Source: Methylococcales bacterium
GTDB lineage: Bacteria > Pseudomonadota > Gammaproteobacteria > Methylococcales > Methylomonadaceae
NCBI GenBank assembly: GCA_003584875.1
Contig: QVQD01000206.1
Coordinates: 1-34,328, forward strand
DNA: 34,328 nt
Direction: 5' to 3'
Shown: positions 17,963 through 34,310 of the stretch, piece after piece
How positions within the stretch are numbered: position 1 is the first letter of the stretch
How the letters are laid out: every line of letters begins with the position of its first letter
Notes under the pieces: generated by a model
Databases searched by the model: none
Told to the model about the DNA's origin: nothing
Seen by the model: only the letters and a program-made list of their open reading frames with translations
Program-made: the position numbers and the translations under genes

Positions 17963-18008
17963 AACCAATAACATTAACACGCGAGAACGATAACATTGTG
18001 GTGAACAT

Positions 18009-18094
18009 CGTAGGGGCGTATTGCATACGCCCTTATAAAATAAGCTCTATAACATATAGACTTTAATGTTGGGCGTATGCAATACACCCCTACG
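18009..18094. repeat. Near-perfect inverted-repeat element, possible terminator
   Basis: The 24-bp arms cgtaggggcgtattgcatac... and its complement at the right end differ at one position. The central loop is 38 bases. Six Ts follow at 18099-18104. The ends relate to the ctgtaggggcga family, but the inner arm sequence (gtattgcatacgccc) differs from the other copies. Lying 47 nt after the TolC stop and followed by a T-run, it may also end the secretion-operon transcript. Confidence 0.75.
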
Positions 18095-18659
18095 GTGATT
18101 TTTTCGTTTCCACGCCGATAAGAAACTTGTGTAGATACCTATGCGTTAAGGTAAGGATTCATATTTGCAAAACCATGAGGTAATTAATTGATTTTTAATT
18201 ATTTCATAATGAATAAACAATGAACTATAGGCTTTAGTAAAGAACAGATTGGAGCAGAAGAGTATTTAAAATACGCCACAGGGATAGCGAAAAAGCTTTT
18301 ACACCAAACCAAAGATCGCTCTTTTCGTTGATGTTGTTGTTAGTTTTGAGAAATACGTAAAGTCTGCGATAACATGACTTAACAAAACACCCATGACAGC
18401 AAGTGCATACTGATCGGCAAGGTGCATTGCTTGGACGAATAGTAAGGTTGCAGAAATTCAATGTTTGACTCTTTACTGAGCGACCTTGATTCAAATTGGA
18501 TCGTAGAAAAATTGACGGCCATGTTATTGACTAATCCATGCGTTGAGCGAAAAAATCTAAACCCATCAAGCAATGATTCAACTTCTATAGTTTTGCTGGA
18601 TATCATAAGAGAATTAAAAGGCATTGTTTTTAAATATCTTTATTCTAAACTTAATGGCA

Positions 18660-20438: not shown

Positions 20439-20504
20439 ACGCTCTGGGTGGAAATGCAGTCTGCATCGCTTCAGCGGTGCCAAACGCAGAGCGTTGCAAC
20501 GATG
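20439..20504. repeat. Degenerate cgcagagcgt-type repeat, copy 3
   Basis: Outer arms acgctctg (20439-20446) and cagagcgt (20487-20494) pair; an inner tgca-gtc-tgca palindrome lies at 20455-20464. The repeat fills the gap between wzm and the MNT gene and provides spurious upstream codons to that gene. Confidence 0.65.
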
Positions 20505-20515
20505 TATGGTGCGGC

Positions 20516-20815
20516 ATGAGGCTTTCTAAATCAACATGCTCTGTTATTCGCAGCACTGTTCAAGAGGTATTTGGCTCAGAGGCCACCGTAAAGCTTTTTG
20601 GCTCACGGATAGATGATAACGCACGGGGCGGGGATATAGATTTGCTGGTTGAGCTAAGTTCTGCCACAACAGAGCTTGAACGTAAAACGCTACAACTTAT
20701 CACTAGACTGCAATTACGCATCGGCGACCAGCCTATTGATGTACTGGTGCTTGATCCTTTAACGCCTAGGCAAGCGATACACGATCACGCCACCTTGACT
20801 GGAATGACCTTATGA
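20516..20815 (+). CDS. MNT-type nucleotidyltransferase (antitoxin-like, HEPN/MNT pair)
   Basis: Minimal nucleotidyltransferase of the kind that AMPylates and neutralises HEPN toxins (MntA/HepT systems). The catalytic motif is G29-S30 followed by D40-I-D42 (GSx9DxD), and the third metal-ligand Asp is D75 or D80 in IDVLVLD. The ATG at 20516 (MRLSKST) is chosen because the 13 residues before it come from a dispersed repeat and because the second MNT gene downstream begins the same way. Length is 99 residues, normal for the family. It overlaps the HEPN gene by 4 nt (ATGA), so the pair is coupled. Whether this pair is active as a toxin-antitoxin system is inference. Confidence 0.85.
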   Translation: MRLSKSTCSVIRSTVQEVFGSEATVKLFGSRIDDNARGGDIDLLVELSSATTELERKTLQLITRLQLRIGDQPIDVLVLDPLTPRQAIHDHATLTGMTL

Positions 20816-24682: not shown

Positions 24683-27496
24683 ATGAGTCTAAATAACTTG
24701 TTAAACAGTGCTAAATTTTCCCCAAAATCATTAAAAGGATCAAATGCTTGGATAGGACATTTGCCCTTTGCTGCATGGGTGATTAATGAGGTCACACCTA
24801 AAGTCTTTGTTGAATTGGGCACCTATGCTGGAAACTCTTATTTCTCGTTCTGCCAATCGGTTACTGAGCATGGCTTATCAACCAAATGCTATGCGGTTGA
24901 TACCTGGCAGGGCGATGAGCATTCAGGCCATTATAGTGATGATATTTTTAACCAAGTTAATAGCTATCATCAAGCGCATTATGCCGACTTTTCCAATTTA
25001 TTGCGTATGACTTTTGATGAGGCTGCCGCCTATTTTTCAGATGCCTCAATCGACTTACTGCATATTGATGGCTTACATACCTATGAAGCGGTTGCTCATG
25101 ATTTTCAAACATGGTTGCCTAAGTTAGCTCCGGGGGCGATTGTAATGTTCCATGATACCAATGTACGCGAACGTAACTTTGGTGTATGGAAGCTTTGGGA
25201 AGAGCTGAAAACTAACTATCCTAATCACTTAGAGTTTATTCATTCACATGGCTTAGGTGTACTTAAGATTAACGACACCTCTGATAGCAATAATATATCT
25301 TGGTTACAACCCGATACGGAAGAACAGAAACAGTTTATAAGTTATTTTACTTCTTTAGGTTCACGGCAATTAGATCGTTATGACTTAAACCTGGTTAAGT
25401 GCCAATTTGATGAATTGACTAAACAGCTTACCAACACTGATCTTAAAGTCAGTGCGCAGGCGAGCCAAATTGATGCACAAGCCATTCAACTTGATGCAAA
25501 GACCACTCAAATTGATGCACAAGCCATTCAACTTGATGCAAAGACCACTCAAATTGATGCGCAAGCCACTCAAATTGATGCGCAGGAGAGGCAGCTCCAA
25601 AATATTATAGCTGAGCGAGATGAGGCTTTAAGGCACAATGAGACTCTGGACCAAATTATTATGGAACGAGAGACAACAATAAGTCAGTTACTGTCTTCGA
25701 ATTCATGGCGCTTAACTAAGCCGATACGATTTTTGTCTCGAGCTCTGAGAGGCGAGTTTAATCCAGCAATAAGTCCACATCGTGCGACTCCTTATGTGCT
25801 TTTTATCCTCAAAGGTGATTTTGTTGGTTTAATTTCGCGATTGAGCTTGCGTAAAAAAATGCTTGCCACAAACAAAAAAGACAGAGCTATCGCTACTATT
25901 ATTGCTAATTCTGCTAGAAACCCTGATCAACTAGCTTGGGGTATTATGGCAACACCCCATACATTATTTATTGCTTATCTAATTGCAGATCGTTTGCAAA
26001 GTCATGGCTGGCAGGTTGAAATATTTACTGAATCTCCCAAACATTTTCAATACGATTATTATATTGTGATATGTCCCCAGATGTTCACAAAACTGCCTCC
26101 TGGTGAAAAGCGTATCGCTTTTCAAATGGAGCAATCTGTAAGTTCTCGATGGTTTACTAGTACTTACTTTGCGATGCTCAATAATTCATTAGCAGTATTA
26201 GAATATGCCCTTGTAAATGTTGATTTTATGGCAACTAAAGGTGTGGCATTTCCGCACGTACACTATCTTCCTGTTGGCGCAGCAAAGAAATATGGCAGTA
26301 CAGCTAGCGCAGTCGAGAAAACCTACGATATTTTATTTTATGGTGACAGCCTTTCTTCACTTCGACGTAGAAAGATGCTGGATGCATTAAGCGAGCATTT
26401 CACTGTACGCGTAATCAATGACATTTTTGGCAATGAAATCCAAGAGCTTATAAAACAAGCGCGTTTAGTGATTAATTTGCATTATTATGAGAATGCCTTA
26501 CTAGAGATGCCTCGTATTCAAGAGTGTTTATCACTTGGTATACCGGTCATATCCGAATCAGCGCAAGACCAACAAGATTATCCTGAGCTGATTGGTGTTG
26601 TTCACTTTTTTGAACAAGGCTCAATCGCTGCCATGTTGAGCGCAGTCAAGGAAGCATTAGAAAAACCAGTGTTGCCAGAGACAATTACTGAGTCAGTTAA
26701 GCTAAGTGAACAACGCTTTAAATTTATGTTTGACCGTTTTTTGATTGCACTTGGATTCTTACCTGCGTCCTATGCTAAGCAATTAACATTAACGTTACCC
26801 AATACTGTTACTCGAGTTGCACTCTCATTGCCTGAAACCATTGGACGTAGGCGTTTATTTGAGTCAGAGAAGCCAGTGAATTGTCATGTTTTTGATGGTA
26901 TCCGGCGTAGTCCTGGGTGGGTAGGTTGTGGTCTAAGTTATGTAGCTCTTTCTCAATTTGCTCTAAAACAAGGTATAAATAACATTACAGTGATGGAAGA
27001 TGATGTTATATTGCCAGCTAATTTTGAGTCTAACATAGCGATTATCAATGAATTCTTGGCTGCTAGGCCAGCACAATGGGATGTGTTTGCCGGCGTCATC
27101 GCTGCGCTACACTCGGATGTAGAAATTGTTTCAGTCGATGTTTTTAAGGATATAACTTTTGTCACTATTAATAAAATGACCAGCACGGTATTTAATATAT
27201 ATAGTGAAAAAGTATTACATCTTTTAGCTTCTTGGGATCCTGAGAATTTAGATGCTGAATTTAATACCATTGATCGGTTTTTAGAACAACAAGCTGATCT
27301 TCGTGTCGTTGTAACATTGCCATTTTTTGTTGGGCATCGGGAAGAAGTGCATTCGACTCTCTGGGGTTTTCAAAATGATACATATAACGATATGATCGAT
27401 AATAGTGAACTCTTGTTAGAAAATAAAGTAGCAACTTATCTTGACAGTCTGAGCAATACAAGACCTCTAGAAACAACAGTATCGTCGTTGTTATAA
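24683..27496 (+). CDS. Multidomain methyltransferase/glycosyltransferase fusion
   Basis: A 937-residue cytoplasmic protein with four parts. Residues 1-200 form a class I methyltransferase (VELGTYAGNS at 43-52, LLHIDGLHTYEAV, MFHDTNVRE). Residues about 225-340 are a coiled coil including six near-identical heptads at 259-300 (QxxQIDA or KTTQIDA), ending in the SNSWRLTKP junction common in large glycosyltransferases. Residues about 390-690 resemble a GT-B/CgeB-like glycosyltransferase, with IQECLSLGIPVISES at 612-626. Residues about 715-937 resemble family 25 glycosyltransferases (GCGLSY at 748-753 and EDDV at 772-775), although the usual GCxLSH histidine is Tyr here. An AAGGT ribosome site precedes the ATG. 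It probably builds or caps the exported glycan. Confidence 0.85.
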   Translation: MSLNNLLNSAKFSPKSLKGSNAWIGHLPFAAWVINEVTPKVFVELGTYAGNSYFSFCQSVTEHGLSTKCYAVDTWQGDEHSGHYSDDIFNQVNSYHQAHYADFSNLLRMTFDEAAAYFSDASIDLLHIDGLHTYEAVAHDFQTWLPKLAPGAIVMFHDTNVRERNFGVWKLWEELKTNYPNHLEFIHSHGLGVLKINDTSDSNNISWLQPDTEEQKQFISYFTSLGSRQLDRYDLNLVKCQFDELTKQLTNTDLKVSAQASQIDAQAIQLDAKTTQIDAQAIQLDAKTTQIDAQATQIDAQERQLQNIIAERDEALRHNETLDQIIMERETTISQLLSSNSWRLTKPIRFLSRALRGEFNPAISPHRATPYVLFILKGDFVGLISRLSLRKKMLATNKKDRAIATIIANSARNPDQLAWGIMATPHTLFIAYLIADRLQSHGWQVEIFTESPKHFQYDYYIVICPQMFTKLPPGEKRIAFQMEQSVSSRWFTSTYFAMLNNSLAVLEYALVNVDFMATKGVAFPHVHYLPVGAAKKYGSTASAVEKTYDILFYGDSLSSLRRRKMLDALSEHFTVRVINDIFGNEIQELIKQARLVINLHYYENALLEMPRIQECLSLGIPVISESAQDQQDYPELIGVVHFFEQGSIAAMLSAVKEALEKPVLPETITESVKLSEQRFKFMFDRFLIALGFLPASYAKQLTLTLPNTVTRVALSLPETIGRRRLFESEKPVNCHVFDGIRRSPGWVGCGLSYVALSQFALKQGINNITVMEDDVILPANFESNIAIINEFLAARPAQWDVFAGVIAALHSDVEIVSVDVFKDITFVTINKMTSTVFNIYSEKVLHLLASWDPENLDAEFNTIDRFLEQQADLRVVVTLPFFVGHREEVHSTLWGFQNDTYNDMIDNSELLLENKVATYLDSLSNTRPLETTVSSLL
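25457..25582 (+). repeat. In-gene 21-bp heptad repeats (coiled coil)
   Basis: Six 21-bp units encode six seven-residue repeats. Units 2-3 and 4-5 form a near-identical 42-bp pair at DNA level, showing recent duplication. Because the unit is one heptad, changes in copy number would lengthen or shorten the coiled coil without breaking the frame. Confidence 0.85.
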
Positions 27497-29085: not shown

Positions 29086-29091
29086 GTGCAT

Positions 29092-30531
29092 ATGAGTTTC
29101 AAAATAAAATTATTAATAGAAACCTGTTTCCAGGATTGTTGTGTCGTTAAGTTGTTAGGTCATAGCCTAATAACCCTCGTTCGCGCTTTATTTTGCTTAT
29201 TGTTTTTACTATCTCCTGCCCTAGTTGCAAGCGCAAACGTCCCAGAGTCTGAAGTTGCAGGTCATGTTACTTTAGTTATAGGCCAGGCACTCGCTATTAA
29301 TAAAAATCATCAGCAACGTGAATTAAAACGAGATGATGTCGTATATAGTGGTGAAACCATTGAAACCTCGCTGGGCGGTCATGTCCACTTACATTTCATA
29401 GACGACGGTATTGTTAGTTTGCGCCCCAGTAGTCGTCTTATTATCGAACTTTATCATTACGATAAACAGCAAGCTAATAACAGTGCCATCCGCTTTACTT
29501 TGCAATCAGGTGTGTTGCGCAGTATTTCTGGTAAAGCGACCGAAGCCGATCATCAGCGTTTTCGTCTTAATACCCCAATTACTGCCATCGGCGTATTAGG
29601 TACCGATTTTATCGTCAGAGCCGAGCCTGAAAAAGTGTGGGCAGGCGTCTATTCAGGTGCTATTGCCATTGCGCCACTCAGTGATCAATGTATAGCAAAC
29701 AGTTTAGGGGCTTGTGCAGGTGCAACACGTTTAACTGAGTTAATGGGCGGGGTGATGCTAGAGTTCACTCATGGCAAGGTACAAGAAAAATTAGTGCCTA
29801 TTGATCCTGCCATACTTTCTAAGAGCAAGCCAAGTAATCTTGATAATTCGGATAATGCGATAGCTTCATCATCAAGCTTATTGACCACAACTAACGGCAC
29901 AAGTGGTCGAATAACCCCTATTGATATAGTGGTTGTCGATGCCTTGGCTCAACAAACGCCTACACCTCCTGTAGTAACTCCAGTAGCGCCACCTGTAATA
30001 CCTCCAGTAGTTCAGTCTTCCCCCTTTGTCTGGGAGCGCTGGTTTTGGACGATACCGGCCACAGGCGATACCATGACTCAAGCCTCAGGTACACATGTAG
30101 GAGCTAATTTTTTAAATGCAGGTAATAGTTATGCCGGACTGTTTTCGATAACACCCTTAACACAGGTGCAGCCCCAAGCAGGGGTATATGATTTTAGCTT
30201 AACTCAGGGACAGGTTTACTTTGTGGGTAATGGCTATAATAATTTTCCTAGCACTGCTAATCCTGGTTTGGCTCAGTTAAACTCAGGGAGTTTACAGGTT
30301 AATTTTGCTACACAAAGCTTCAATACGCAGTTAACTCTGCAATATCAAACAGTATCTGCTAATTTAAATTTAACTGGAGCCATACAAAGCTCAGGTGGAT
30401 TTGGTATTCAAAATCCCGCAGGAACCAGTTTAGTGTCAGGTGCAATCAGTGGCAACCATGCTGCGATGGCCTTTATGCAGCAAGTACCCGAAGGTACTTT
30501 TACCGGCTTGACTGATTGGGTTAAAAAATAA
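29092..30531 (+). CDS. FecR-domain periplasmic protein
   Basis: Exported protein with a FecR domain at about residues 50-220 (VTLVIGQALAIN, LKRDDVVYSGETIETSLGGHVHLHFIDDGIVSLRPSSRLIIELY, LNTPITAIGVLGTDFIVRAEPEKVWAGVYSGAIAI). A Ser/Asn/Thr-rich stretch and a proline-rich linker (TPTPPVVTPVAPPVIPPV) follow, then a C-terminal beta-rich domain of about 160 residues that I do not recognise. A hydrophobic segment near residues 28-46 ending LVASA is the likely signal peptide, after an unusually long N-terminus. The ATG at 29092 is preferred over GTG at 29086 because GAGG sits at good distance from it. It overlaps the cyclase gene by one base (TAATG). There is no FecI-type sigma factor or TonB receptor nearby, so this is not a classical FecR. 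Confidence 0.85.
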   Translation: MSFKIKLLIETCFQDCCVVKLLGHSLITLVRALFCLLFLLSPALVASANVPESEVAGHVTLVIGQALAINKNHQQRELKRDDVVYSGETIETSLGGHVHLHFIDDGIVSLRPSSRLIIELYHYDKQQANNSAIRFTLQSGVLRSISGKATEADHQRFRLNTPITAIGVLGTDFIVRAEPEKVWAGVYSGAIAIAPLSDQCIANSLGACAGATRLTELMGGVMLEFTHGKVQEKLVPIDPAILSKSKPSNLDNSDNAIASSSSLLTTTNGTSGRITPIDIVVVDALAQQTPTPPVVTPVAPPVIPPVVQSSPFVWERWFWTIPATGDTMTQASGTHVGANFLNAGNSYAGLFSITPLTQVQPQAGVYDFSLTQGQVYFVGNGYNNFPSTANPGLAQLNSGSLQVNFATQSFNTQLTLQYQTVSANLNLTGAIQSSGGFGIQNPAGTSLVSGAISGNHAAMAFMQQVPEGTFTGLTDWVKK

Positions 30532-32411
30532 TGTCGCTATTTAATTTATTTAAAAACCGCTATTTACCTTTTGTCATTGCAGCCTTATTTAGTTTAGGCA
30601 TCAGTTTAATTAGCATACCCTCAGTTAATAACATAGAAACCGCGGTATCTGATCAATTTTGGCGATTCATAGCTAGTACTGAGCAGCGCGAACATCGTGT
30701 TGTCGTTATAAATATAGATGACGACAGTATTGCCAAATATGGTGCATGGCCATGGCCGCGTGAGCGTACTGCCCAACTTCTAAAAAGCTTGTCAGATCAA
30801 GGTGTGAGTGAGCGCATTATCGACATGGCTTTTCCTGATCCTAAATTAGGTGATGAACAACTCGCCAAAGAATTGCTTAATACGCCCACTATTATGGCGC
30901 AGGTATTAGCACTAAACGCAGATGAATCAGTGGCTAGGGGACAACTTCAAGGCGGACTGACTGGGCAATTATGTAGCGGTTTATTTCCAACAGCTAATGG
31001 TTACATCGCAAATGCGCCTGATTTACATGCCAGCAGCGCTGGACATATTACGCCAAGAATAGCCCAGGATGGCGCAATTCGTCAGCTTCCAGCCATTATT
31101 TGCTACCAGAACTTAGCCTATCCAACCTTAGCATTAGCGGCTTTAGCAGAAGCTGCAGGCGTAAACTCTGACTTTAGCCTTAAAACCGATGGCTCATGGT
31201 TAGAGCCCGTTGCAACATTAGCGCATCCAGCCTTGGCAGGTTTTTCAATACCCTTGACTGACCAAGGCGATATTCTATTGCCTTGGTGGACAGCTAGATC
31301 GGCTATTATTTCCATATCAGCAAAAGATGTCATAGAAGGCAGTTTACCAGCAGGCTATCTGAAAGGGGCGTGGGCGATTATTGGCGCAACGGCTTTTGGC
31401 ATGGCGGATTCAGTAACAACCCCGCAAGCTTCAGCCGTGAGTGGAGTAGAAGTACATGCCCAATTATTAACAGGCTTATTAGATAAGCGCATACCTTATC
31501 AACCACGCGGAGCTTGGTTATTACAAATCATTTGGATAGCCGTGTTAGCGGGTCTCTTATCCGCTGGCGCAAGTATGCGAGCTACTTATTTACGTGCCTA
31601 TGCCCCGGCGTTGATCGGCATGGCATTAATTACCAGCAGCATCATTTTATCTGCATTATTGCTATGGCGCTTTAGTCTATGTGTGTCCTGGCTGCCTGCA
31701 GTCGTGTTTATTATAATTTCGCAGATCTTATTAGGTGCTCAAAATTATATAGCCACCAAAGCCGAAGGTGATAGACTCTACCGCAATTTAGCCAGTTATC
31801 TGCCAGTACATGTTGCTAAAAAAATTGCCATGCAAGAACCTGTCAGCACTTTAAACGCGCATCATGAGCAAGTCGTCGTACTCTATGCAGATTTAAGAAA
31901 CTTTTCTGCTTGGTGTAATCAATTGCCAGCAGATCAAGCTGGCGCAGTACTGCATAGTTTTTATAGCTTTACAGATAACATTATTCATCAACATGGTGGT
32001 GAAGTAGAAGAATATGTTGGTGATGCAATTATGGCGGTTTGGCGCGAAGATATAGTGGGTTTAAAGCCTTTATTAGCCGCACAACAGATTATACAAATGA
32101 GTGAACAATTATTTGGTGCTGAAACCGGAATCGATAAACTACCGCCCTTAGCAGTAGGTATAGGTATAGAGCAAGGCGAAGTCTTAGTAGGTTCGTTTGG
32201 TCCTGCAAGACGCAGAGTACATACGCTATTAGGCAAAACCGTTACCACAGCAATGCGTTTGCAAGAAATGACTGCAGACTTATCACAGCCCATAATTTGT
32301 GGACAGGCTATGGCTAATGCATGGCAAGAGCAAACAGAATTACTGCCACTAGGTAGCTTTTTGTTGCCAGGCTTGCAAAAAGCCAGCGAGCTATTTGCAC
32401 CAAAAGCATAG
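30531..32411 (+). CDS. CHASE2-domain class III nucleotide cyclase
   Basis: Inner membrane sensor-cyclase. One membrane helix (residues about 11-30), a periplasmic CHASE2 domain (about 35-320, with VVVINIDDDSIAKYGAWPWPRERTAQLL), three helices (about 330-415) and a cytoplasmic class III cyclase domain (about 445-615). Metal-binding Asp residues are present at D454 (YADLRNFS) and D498 (YVGDAIMAVW). Unusual positions: the Lys that recognises adenine (K-F-I-G-D in relatives) is E494, the matching Asp/Thr position is T565, and the transition-state Asn of V-N-x3-R is T572, while R576 remains. Product (cAMP, cGMP or none) is therefore uncertain. Length is 626 residues. It is coupled to the FecR gene upstream. 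Confidence 0.9.
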   Translation: MSLFNLFKNRYLPFVIAALFSLGISLISIPSVNNIETAVSDQFWRFIASTEQREHRVVVINIDDDSIAKYGAWPWPRERTAQLLKSLSDQGVSERIIDMAFPDPKLGDEQLAKELLNTPTIMAQVLALNADESVARGQLQGGLTGQLCSGLFPTANGYIANAPDLHASSAGHITPRIAQDGAIRQLPAIICYQNLAYPTLALAALAEAAGVNSDFSLKTDGSWLEPVATLAHPALAGFSIPLTDQGDILLPWWTARSAIISISAKDVIEGSLPAGYLKGAWAIIGATAFGMADSVTTPQASAVSGVEVHAQLLTGLLDKRIPYQPRGAWLLQIIWIAVLAGLLSAGASMRATYLRAYAPALIGMALITSSIILSALLLWRFSLCVSWLPAVVFIIISQILLGAQNYIATKAEGDRLYRNLASYLPVHVAKKIAMQEPVSTLNAHHEQVVVLYADLRNFSAWCNQLPADQAGAVLHSFYSFTDNIIHQHGGEVEEYVGDAIMAVWREDIVGLKPLLAAQQIIQMSEQLFGAETGIDKLPPLAVGIGIEQGEVLVGSFGPARRRVHTLLGKTVTTAMRLQEMTADLSQPIICGQAMANAWQEQTELLPLGSFLLPGLQKASELFAPKA

Positions 32412-32424
32412 CTCTATCTAGTTC

Positions 32425-33090
32425 ATGATTAATCAAAATGTCGTTCGTAGTTTCTGCGTGAAAATACCGCAAGTTTCGCTTTGCGCCACGGCCATAAAGT
32501 TAAAGGTAGAAAAAAAGCCTTTCAACTGTAGGGGCGAATTAATTCGCCCAGTAATCCGATGCACCAAAGAAACAGGGCGAATGCTTAACTCAATGGTTGT
32601 GCCGCAGAGCGAGGAACCTCAGAGCATCACGGCCATAAAGTTAAAGCTAGAAAAAAAGCCTTTCAACTGTAGGGGCGAATTAATTCGCCCAGTAATCCGA
32701 TGCACCAAAGAAACAGGGCAAATGCTTAACTCAATGGTAGTGTCGCAGAGCGAGGAACCTCAGAGCATCACGGCCATAAAGTTAAAGCTAGAAAAAAAGC
32801 CTTTCAACTGTAGGGGCGAATTAATTCGCCCAGTAATCCGATGCACCAAAGAAACAGGGCAAATGCTTAACTCAATGGTAGTGTCGCAGAGCGAGGAACC
32901 TCAGAGCATCACGGCCATAAAGTTAAAGCTAGAAAAAAAGCCTTTCAACTGTAGGGGCGAATTAATTCGCCCAGTAATCCGATGCACCAAAGAAACAGGG
33001 CAAATGCTTAACTCAATGGTAGTGTCGCAGAGCGTTGAACCTCAGCCCGAGTCGCTTTGCGCCACAAGCGCAGCAGCAAAATATAAATGA
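32425..33090 (+). CDS. Repeat-built open frame of doubtful coding status
   Basis: A 221-residue frame made almost wholly of four copies of a 47-residue unit (starting TAIKLK or ITAIKLK, containing FNCRGELIRPVIRCTKETG). The core of each unit is the dispersed palindromic repeat found in non-coding places elsewhere in this window, which argues against a normal protein. In its favour, the frame begins 13 nt after the cyclase stop and its TGA overlaps the next ATG by 4 nt, so ribosomes could cross the whole gap. No ribosome binding site is visible, and the openness of four near-identical units counts only once as evidence. Confidence 0.3.
   Translation: MINQNVVRSFCVKIPQVSLCATAIKLKVEKKPFNCRGELIRPVIRCTKETGRMLNSMVVPQSEEPQSITAIKLKLEKKPFNCRGELIRPVIRCTKETGQMLNSMVVSQSEEPQSITAIKLKLEKKPFNCRGELIRPVIRCTKETGQMLNSMVVSQSEEPQSITAIKLKLEKKPFNCRGELIRPVIRCTKETGQMLNSMVVSQSVEPQPESLCATSAAAKYK
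32488..33051 (+). repeat. Tandem array of four 141-bp units
   Basis: Units start at 32488, 32629, 32770 and 32911. Units 2 and 3 appear identical, unit 1 differs at a few bases, and unit 4 differs only at its end (agcgttgaacctcagcccga). Each contains the perfect 18-bp palindrome gggcgaattaattcgccc and the string cagtaatccgatg shared with the elements at 28579 and 28812. The array is flanked by 14-bp direct repeats tcgctttgcgccac (32476-32489 and 33052-33065), which may mark an insertion or an older unit border. Confidence 0.95.
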
Positions 33091-34310
33091 AAGCTAAGGC
33101 ACTATTAATGCTACTAGCCCTATTAGCCTTTAAGCCCCAGCAAAGCTTAGCGGCAGAGTGTGATTCACAACAATTAAACGATCCAAAAGCTAGCTGCCAT
33201 AAAAGTCCAGAACAACAAATCCAAATGGCGGCAGATCTTATTGCTAAGCAACACTATGTTCAAGCAGCAGATTTAATAGAGCGGCTATTAATGCAATATC
33301 CACAAACAGTGGGTGCAGCAGAACAATATCAACTAGCACTCGATGGCATGGAAGGCAAGCACCCCGTTTCCATCAATGTACAAGCCCTGCAACAAAATGT
33401 CTGGCAAATTAATACCGCCCTACAAATGCGTAGCGGTTACAGCACTAATTTAAATCAAGCTCCCAGTTCATCCAGTGTACAACTAACTCTTCCTACCGGC
33501 CCAATAGCACTTAATTTATTGCCCCAGTTTCAACAACAAGGTGGCGTAGCAGGCGAAAGCCAAATAAGCATCAACGCAATACGCGGCTACTCTAATAAAC
33601 TGCAATGGCAAGTAAAAGGGGATTTATACGGCCGAGAAACGGGTAACGGCGGTTATGCAGATTATCAAGGGACTAACTTGTTTAGCTCCTTAATGAAACA
33701 ACATGATTCAGGCTCAGAAACCGCGCTAGCCATGGGTTTTAACGCCTTACATTACAATGTTGATACCTATCTATTTGCTAGTCAATTGATGTTAAGACAC
33801 ACCGGCACGCAGCAATGGTATTGTAAATCACAAAGCGGTGTGGATTTACTATGGCAAAGACAACAAAGCAATCCTTTATTAGATAGTCACTATACCGGCT
33901 TAATGATAGGCGCACTATGTGACACGCCGTTAGGCTTTTATAATATTAACCTAGGGGCAGGATGGGATTGGGCGGCAACTCAACGCCCAGGTGGAGATCA
34001 ACTACGAGGTAAGCTAGAAGTAACCGGTATTTGGAATACACCCTTTATAACCGAAAGCAGTTTTATAAAAGCCAGCAGCAGTTATCAAGAAAGCTTAGAT
34101 AGACAAGCTTATAGTCCTTGGCTCAACTACGGCGCCACAAGACAGCTAAGTCGCGTGGGTTTAGGTGTAGATTATGATTGGCCCTTAGAAGTCATTGTTC
34201 ATAATTGGCGAGGCGTTGCCACTGTAAAATGGCAAAATCAAGATAGCAATATCAGCTTATTTACCATGAACGCCCTAGAGGGCTGGTTAGGCGTAAGAAC
34301 AGCTTGGTAG
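33087..34310 (+). CDS. Outer membrane beta-barrel protein with N-terminal TPR-like segment
   Basis: The signal peptide is residues 1-22 or so (MKAKALLMLLALLAF...SLAA). A helical TPR-like segment follows (QMAADLIAKQHYVQAADLIERLLMQYPQTVGAAEQYQLAL), and from residue 110 alternating beta strands rich in aromatic residues run to a C-terminal Trp, as in outer membrane barrels. The layout recalls Slam/DUF560-type surface assembly proteins (TPR plus barrel), though I cannot confirm that family. Length is 407 residues. Two Cys pairs could form disulfides (C25/C37 and C246/C274 approximately). It overlaps the repeat-built frame by 4 nt and belongs to the FecR-cyclase operon. Function unknown; export or surface display is inferred. 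Confidence 0.75.
   Translation: MKAKALLMLLALLAFKPQQSLAAECDSQQLNDPKASCHKSPEQQIQMAADLIAKQHYVQAADLIERLLMQYPQTVGAAEQYQLALDGMEGKHPVSINVQALQQNVWQINTALQMRSGYSTNLNQAPSSSSVQLTLPTGPIALNLLPQFQQQGGVAGESQISINAIRGYSNKLQWQVKGDLYGRETGNGGYADYQGTNLFSSLMKQHDSGSETALAMGFNALHYNVDTYLFASQLMLRHTGTQQWYCKSQSGVDLLWQRQQSNPLLDSHYTGLMIGALCDTPLGFYNINLGAGWDWAATQRPGGDQLRGKLEVTGIWNTPFITESSFIKASSSYQESLDRQAYSPWLNYGATRQLSRVGLGVDYDWPLEVIVHNWRGVATVKWQNQDSNISLFTMNALEGWLGVRTAW

Follow-up and report, generated by a model that had tools for sequence, protein, structure and literature searches.

The window, i.e., the whole stretch of 34,328 nucleotides that was analysed, carries near its end a run of three genes on the forward strand. 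The first gene (29,086 to 30,531) encodes a FecR-domain protein (PF04773, 6.4e-12) and its end overlaps the next start at 30,531. The second (30,531 to 32,411) encodes a CHASE2 - adenylate/guanylate cyclase (PF05226, 2.3e-41; PF00211, 1.5e-12). The third (33,087 to 34,310), named the barrel gene in the first-pass annotation, has a signal-peptide-like start and was assigned to no Pfam or NCBIfam family; its orthologue in genome G023 is 78% identical. The run as a whole (29,086 to 34,310) is patchily distributed, as the cyclase was found in only 10 of 237 genomes of the family, its own included, and a search of 311 genomes of the order gave the same 10. Searching with the cyclase led to relatives named Crenothrix polyspora (MAG), Methylobacter or Methylococcaceae.

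The repeat array and its bridging frame

Between the cyclase and the barrel gene lie four units of 141 bp on the forward strand (32,487 to 33,045), for which TRF reported a period of 141, 4.0 copies, 98% matches and 0% indels. Based on TRF and on the dispersed copies, each unit corresponds to a GTAG-REP element whose second, inverted REP is short of about 18 bp, a figure that we read from the unit alignment. According to the ORF list and its translation, an ORF of 221 amino acids (32,425 to 33,090, forward strand) runs through all four units. It opens at ATG 32,425, 13 nt past the cyclase stop TAG (32,409 to 32,411), and is closed by TGA (33,088 to 33,090), where the motif ATGA (33,087 to 33,090) forms a 4-nt overlap with the ATG of the barrel gene at 33,087. 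TRF and the ORF list therefore confirm the anatomy given in the first-pass annotation, i.e., four near-identical 141-bp units and a frame that opens 13 nt behind the cyclase stop and runs as far as a 4-nt overlap downstream. Judged by a short distance between stop and start as the sign of coupling, the junction qualifies by the overlap at the barrel start, and the 13 nt at the cyclase end are marginal. Among the six frames of the unit only the bridge frame is free of stops, and the ORF begins and terminates outside the units, in the two flanks of the array. Its frame differs from that of the barrel gene, which is interrupted by stops in the array.

Units 2 and 3 are exactly identical. Unit 1 differs from them at four positions (20, 93, 112 and 116), giving three non-synonymous and one synonymous change in the bridge frame, and unit 4 differs from unit 1 at ten positions, six of them in the final 16 nt. 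As unit 1 carries at position 93 the base of the dispersed relative L005, units 2 to 4 look derived. Near both edges of the array a 14-bp direct repeat is found (starts at 32,476 and 33,052). The left flank (32,412 to 32,486, forward strand) is homologous to the left part of the corresponding gap in G023 (L023), and the ATG is common to both; the local alignment score of 29 was reached by none of 500 mononucleotide shuffles, the best of which scored 28, so the margin is narrow. The right flank (33,046 to 33,086, forward strand) is homologous to the right part of the same gap, read in another phase, with a score of 43 (0 of 500 shuffles, best 30).

The bridge is not gene-like in its codon use (-0.06 bits per codon versus 0.26 to 0.35 in three neighbouring genes), and on this score a real repeat protein was rejected. 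A Pfam match of the array ORF to Vac14_Fab1_bd (27.1 bits, cut-off 22.1) was set aside, as no stretch passes singly and the score was taken as a sum over the repeated units; ZZ_ADA2 stayed under its cut-off. A promoter within the array was also rejected, since the scan gave no forward-strand site between 32,297 and 33,918 and the number of sites in the region (14) was close to that in shuffles (12.5). A Shine-Dalgarno match is absent at the bridge start as well as at the barrel start; this does not discriminate, with only 3 of the 28 starts in the window reaching -6 kcal/mol, and was rejected as a sign of coupling. The predicted RNA folding of the array stretch is strong (z -4.7, 20 shuffles).

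Two rules were used to score a bridge against chance. The lenient rule places a start codon between -8 and +60 of the upstream stop and the end at or beyond -20 of the next start, and the strict rule places the start within +15 and the end at or beyond -4. When the unit was shuffled coherently and both flanks were shuffled too, a bridge appeared in 7.7% (lenient) or 0.7% (strict) of 3000 trials; when the array was kept and only the flanks were shuffled, the rates were 30% and 4.7%. Taken alone, the open frame of the window is weak evidence, and the caution of the first-pass annotation, that one open unit suffices to open all four, was well placed. Its suggestion that growth in steps of three had been selected is unsupported: in a sample made of the window and 60 stretches of its own genome (231,244 bases), 7 of 14 long-period TRF rows have a period divisible by three (5 of 12 loci, three rows overlapping on one contig), and the 141-bp period was rejected as a mark of frame selection. 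The array is the only one of these 14 rows that is open over its whole length in any of the six frames.

The unit as a GTAG-type REP element

REPs are usually treated as extragenic. In the sample none of the 77 REP-bearing intervals lies inside a called ORF, which bears out the earlier statement that the core of the unit is intergenic elsewhere. The intervals comprise 32 co-directional, 12 convergent and 10 divergent gaps, and the other 23, at stretch edges, were left out of the bridge scoring. In the own genome (3.03 Mb, 240 contigs) 100 matches to the unit were listed at E up to 10, and a core variant with a 3-nt centre has 69 and 64 exact matches (133 copies), with 0 for the reversed control. 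Each unit carries the hallmark of GTAG REPs, the GTAG tag beside the palindrome, CTGTAGGGGCGAATTAATTCGCCC. A REP-associated tyrosine transposase (RAYT; NF047646, 156.1 bits, cut-off 80) is encoded on contig C207, which also bears several REP matches. Judged from its sequence, the unit fits the GTAG superfamily as it is described in the available part of Di Nocera et al. (2013; PMC3733652). In the family it was found (E up to 1e-6) in at least 5 of 237 genomes, a lower bound as three candidates were scored per genome. The window itself opens on a related structure: the contig begins within a tandem repeat (1 to 410) in which 1 to 104 and 182 to 285 are 97% identical and contain GTAG-type cores, and arrays of this kind are often met at contig ends of the own genome.

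The nearest copy of the array unit, at locus L066, matches it at 89% over positions 1 to 97. In the TGT-AGG phase the median open run around REP cores in the sample is 36 codons, and only 7 of 169 uncut runs reach at least 100 codons, namely the four window units, two at L066 (sense and antisense) and one at L054. The antisense run at L066 has 107 codons, so long open runs do occur without meaning.

Bridges are rare in REP-bearing gaps. Only 2 of the 32 co-directional ones in the sample are bridged (the window and L066) and a bridge as the rule for all REP gaps was rejected on the remaining 30. Over all sample gaps of 90 to 900 nt, bridges were counted in 10 of 54 co-directional gaps in sense and 2 of 54 in antisense direction, in 1 of 17 convergent and in 0 of 17 divergent gaps. 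For gaps of at least 150 nt the counts were 4 of 45 in sense versus 0 of 45 in antisense; one of the four is a 112-aa ORF at 20,477 to 20,815 and one runs on into the next gene. Other bridged gaps below 220 nt in the own genome looked like chance or mis-called starts and were set aside.

Corresponding junctions in related genomes

No strain-level relative with the operon was found among the 237 genomes of the family or the 311 of the order, and the earlier suggestion that expression is tuned by copy number is unsupported. In five of the nine other genomes with the cyclase (G086, G100, G101, G105 and G106) the barrel gene begins at a GTG that overlaps the cyclase stop in the motif GTGA. The junction reads TAGTG in G104, there are 6 nt from the cyclase stop to the GTG in G135, and in G170 (L038) no barrel start was seen near or after the cyclase stop. 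Sequence comparison thus supports an ancestrally coupled cyclase-barrel junction. Inserted DNA is present at this junction in four genomes from three lineages (the window, G023, and the sisters G100 and G101) and is open in all four. In G023 (L023) a GTG directly follows the TAG and the 162-nt gap is open through into the barrel gene, and in G100 and G101 (L031/L032) the insert follows the GTG and the frame is again open into the barrel gene, so that these frames may be N-terminal extensions of that gene. As the lenient chance rates are high (0.35 for L023, 0.76 and 0.63 for L031/L032), their openness is support and not proof.

The second bridged REP gap of the own genome, L066 (G000:C23; L110), is situated between an HlyD-type (MFP) and an AcrB-type (RND) gene. 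Its bridge runs from GTGA to TAATG over 104 codons including the stop and scores 0.017 bits per codon; the chance of 0.0065 is unremarkable alone, being that of one match in 32 gaps looked at. Inside this bridge (L066, 2701 to 2832), ahead of the real start, there is a degenerate partial copy of the RND gene start (LRPFAASLLMLALL versus LRPVATSLLMLALL), which looks like a target duplication made by the insertion. The sister genome G019 (L111), whose MFP is 99% identical, has a gap of 505 nt that shares the first approximately 60 nt with L066 and is different throughout thereafter. Still, it is open from the same GTG (GTGA) to the same TAATG over 170 codons, which none of 2000 shuffles reproduced, with -0.009 bits per codon and no other frame open. 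This 170-codon frame (L111, 2287 to 2796; G019:C47) looks like a mosaic of several repeat families.

The MFP is present in 31 of 35 genomes of the genus, and 3 of the 30 genus loci were dropped from the count, the RND start not being on the locus (L118, L126, L137). All six MFP-RND gaps of at least 100 nt in the genus are bridged. Beside the two long ones these are the gaps of 124, 127, 103 and 101 nt in L112 to L115, with chance rates of 0.48 to 0.79 (lenient) and 0.09 to 0.16 (strict). The shorter gaps in L116 and L121 to L125 hold ORFs of 17 to 24 codons including the stop, which look ancestral; L119 and L120 have just a short ORF from +31, and L117 and L128 have no bridge.

At the zipA-ligA junction the genes are non-overlapping in the 25 usable loci of 30, the other five having been dropped as both genes were not present on the locus. 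Here only one of nine gaps of at least 100 nt is bridged (L157) and eight are not, in contrast to six of six for MFP-RND (Fisher 0.0014, which ignores relatedness). The zipA-ligA gap of L163 (G013:C45) contains a lengthy series of 7-nt units, CCCTTAG and variants of it. In the genus of G100, 13 MFP-RND loci were compared. Six of them have repeat-filled gaps of 196 to 853 nt and only L150 is bridged; at L141, L142, L144, L147 and L149 the junction is swollen by repeats to 199 to 853 nt and unbridged. In six other loci the ATG lies 2 nt past the stop, and the 37-nt gap of L140 is bridged. The five unbridged insertions at these close-spaced junctions argue against a general rule.

A putative relay cistron and its alternatives

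The reading that we favour could equally well turn out right or wrong: the array may form a MIRU-like relay cistron, built of repeats, that keeps translation coupled across the junction. A GTAG-REP element would have entered the intercistronic junction of two genes ancestrally coupled by a 4-nt overlap and would then have been amplified there in tandem, its open phase becoming an extra cistron without peptide function. Ribosomes would be relayed from the cyclase stop over the 13 nt to ATG 32,425, through the REP hairpins and via ATGA to the barrel start. While translating they would melt the hairpins and keep Rho off the message, and the downstream barrel gene would thereby retain translation and transcription; Rho polarity is taken here as described in the available part of PMC12548453. 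Selection would filter insertions for openness. According to the accessible text of PMC10666635, reinitiation falls steeply with distance and was nearly abolished by about 20 nt in six tested pairs. DNA inserted into a coupled junction would thus be expected to break the link to the downstream gene, except where the inserted DNA is itself translated.

The first-pass annotation had proposed a constraint to keep ribosomes moving through the array, and this proposal stands in part. It is favoured by the ancestral GTGA overlap (five of nine), by the open frames in the three other inserted genomes and by the bridge of G019, open despite a mostly different gap sequence. Against it are the unbridged repeat gaps at zipA-ligA (eight of nine) and at MFP-RND in the genus of G100 (five of six), so that the constraint, if real, would apply at certain coupled junctions but not to REP arrays as a class. 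A wider version is tentative and rather doubtful, namely that coupled operon junctions act as a reading-frame filter: a repeat that has landed there would last only if some frame is open from stop to start, which would steadily turn junk into translated relay cistrons of up to about 220 codons. If true, the filter would belong to the junction rather than to a particular mobile element and would give rise to newborn ORFs.

A neutral expansion would need no role of the frame at all, and we regard it as possible but not probable. In that case a REP subtype open in one phase by chance was inserted and then multiplied through slippage or unequal crossing-over, the bridge is coincidental and the barrel gene uses its own start. 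The chance rates agree with this (7.7% lenient, 30% with the array kept), as do the same open phase in the closest dispersed copy (L005/L066), the tandem REP arrays common in the genome (14 TRF rows in the sample) and the unbridged gaps, i.e., 30 of 32 REP-bearing co-directional gaps and five of the six inserted MFP-RND gaps in the genus of G100. Against it speak the G019 gap, which consists of different repeats past about 60 nt and is still open over 170 codons (0 of 2000 shuffles), the difference between MFP-RND and zipA-ligA, and the fact that the single open array among 14 is that at the ancestrally overlapping junction.

That the array works at the RNA or DNA level rather than through its frame is unlikely in our view, although the strong predicted folding (z -4.7) would suit REP hairpins that protect the upstream message or lower downstream expression, as enterobacterial intercistronic REPs do, and REP effects on mRNA stability and translation are reported in the available parts of PMC12306157 and PMC3733652. 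Such a role leaves the open frames at two junctions unaccounted for, and from the cyclase stop (32,411) to the first REP core (32,528) there are 117 nt, more than the 15 nt given for REP action on translation in the accessible text of PMC12306157. An assembly artefact, in the array or in its copy number, is very improbable. The genome is in 240 contigs, 6 of the 14 long-period TRF rows lie no more than 100 bp from the end of a contig, unit 2 cannot be told from unit 3, and the copy number of four is the number as assembled. However, private differences mark unit 1 and the end of unit 4, and each flank aligns with a homologous part of L023. The site of insertion and a minimum of two units are therefore probably genuine.

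Returning to the relay cistron, the nearest case in the literature is the MIRU (Supply et al., 1997), in which, following Brown and Wade (2025; PMC12548453, available part), the repeat carries an ORF with a 4-nt overlap on the following start, the downstream gene stays coupled and the insertion does little harm. The argument given above for translation across an insertion has already been made there for mycobacterial MIRUs. In senX3-regX3 MIRUs are present as several units (PMC7884335, in the part available). The array likewise sits between operon genes, co-transcription being assumed from orientation and spacing, and its ORF overlaps the downstream start by 4 nt (ATGA). The MIRU inserts at the start codon and carries the ORF in its unit, whereas the array is placed between two flanks of a gap common with L023, and its ORF, compared by described anatomy, spans four units and both flanks and does not come as a fixed component of a single mobile element. 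A further difference is the second junction, whose bridge is filled by different repeats in a sister species; judged from these sequences, the constraint would sit in the junction, and this is what the present case adds to the MIRU. In the literature searched, which left most subscription journals outside, no paper on REP arrays in Methylobacter operons was found.

The array resembles the GTAG REP/RAYT systems in the GTAG tag by the palindrome, the high copy number, the mostly intergenic location, the tandem reiteration with flanking DNA and the RAYT among the repeats. Di Nocera et al. (2013; PMC3733652, available text) already report tandem reiteration of REPs as well as their presence within ORFs and at ORF N-termini, but that text has 0 occurrences of the word operon and describes no separate REP-made cistron linking the stop and the start of two operon genes. 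Rickettsia palindromic elements, as treated there, are also palindromic repeats kept in an open frame, but they lie inside genes and lengthen the protein, whereas the bridge stands as an ORF of its own, in a different frame from the barrel gene. mgtQ of Salmonella (PMC8092293, available part) is again a small ORF between two operon genes, and its translation helps the downstream gene by freeing the ribosome site from RNA structure. Unlike the bridge it has 8 codons with required residues and is not made of repeats.

If some coupled junctions admit only translatable repeats, insertion and coupling together would create long peptide-coding junk, some of it annotated as hypothetical proteins, and the MIRU idea would extend from one mycobacterial element to any repeat. 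The comparison suggests that such DNA may be tolerated at junctions of a methane-oxidising bacterium because it is still translatable. The MFP-RND and cyclase-barrel junctions form a natural insertion series for comparing genomes.

Two further repeats were observed in the window. A 21/42-bp in-frame repeat (25,453 to 25,599) lies inside a gene of 937 amino acids (24,683 to 27,496) with methyltransferase and coiled-coil matches. A second palindromic family (18,006 to 18,097), consisting of GTAGGGGCGTATTGCATACGCCC and its inverse 38 nt apart, is located behind an outer-membrane efflux gene.
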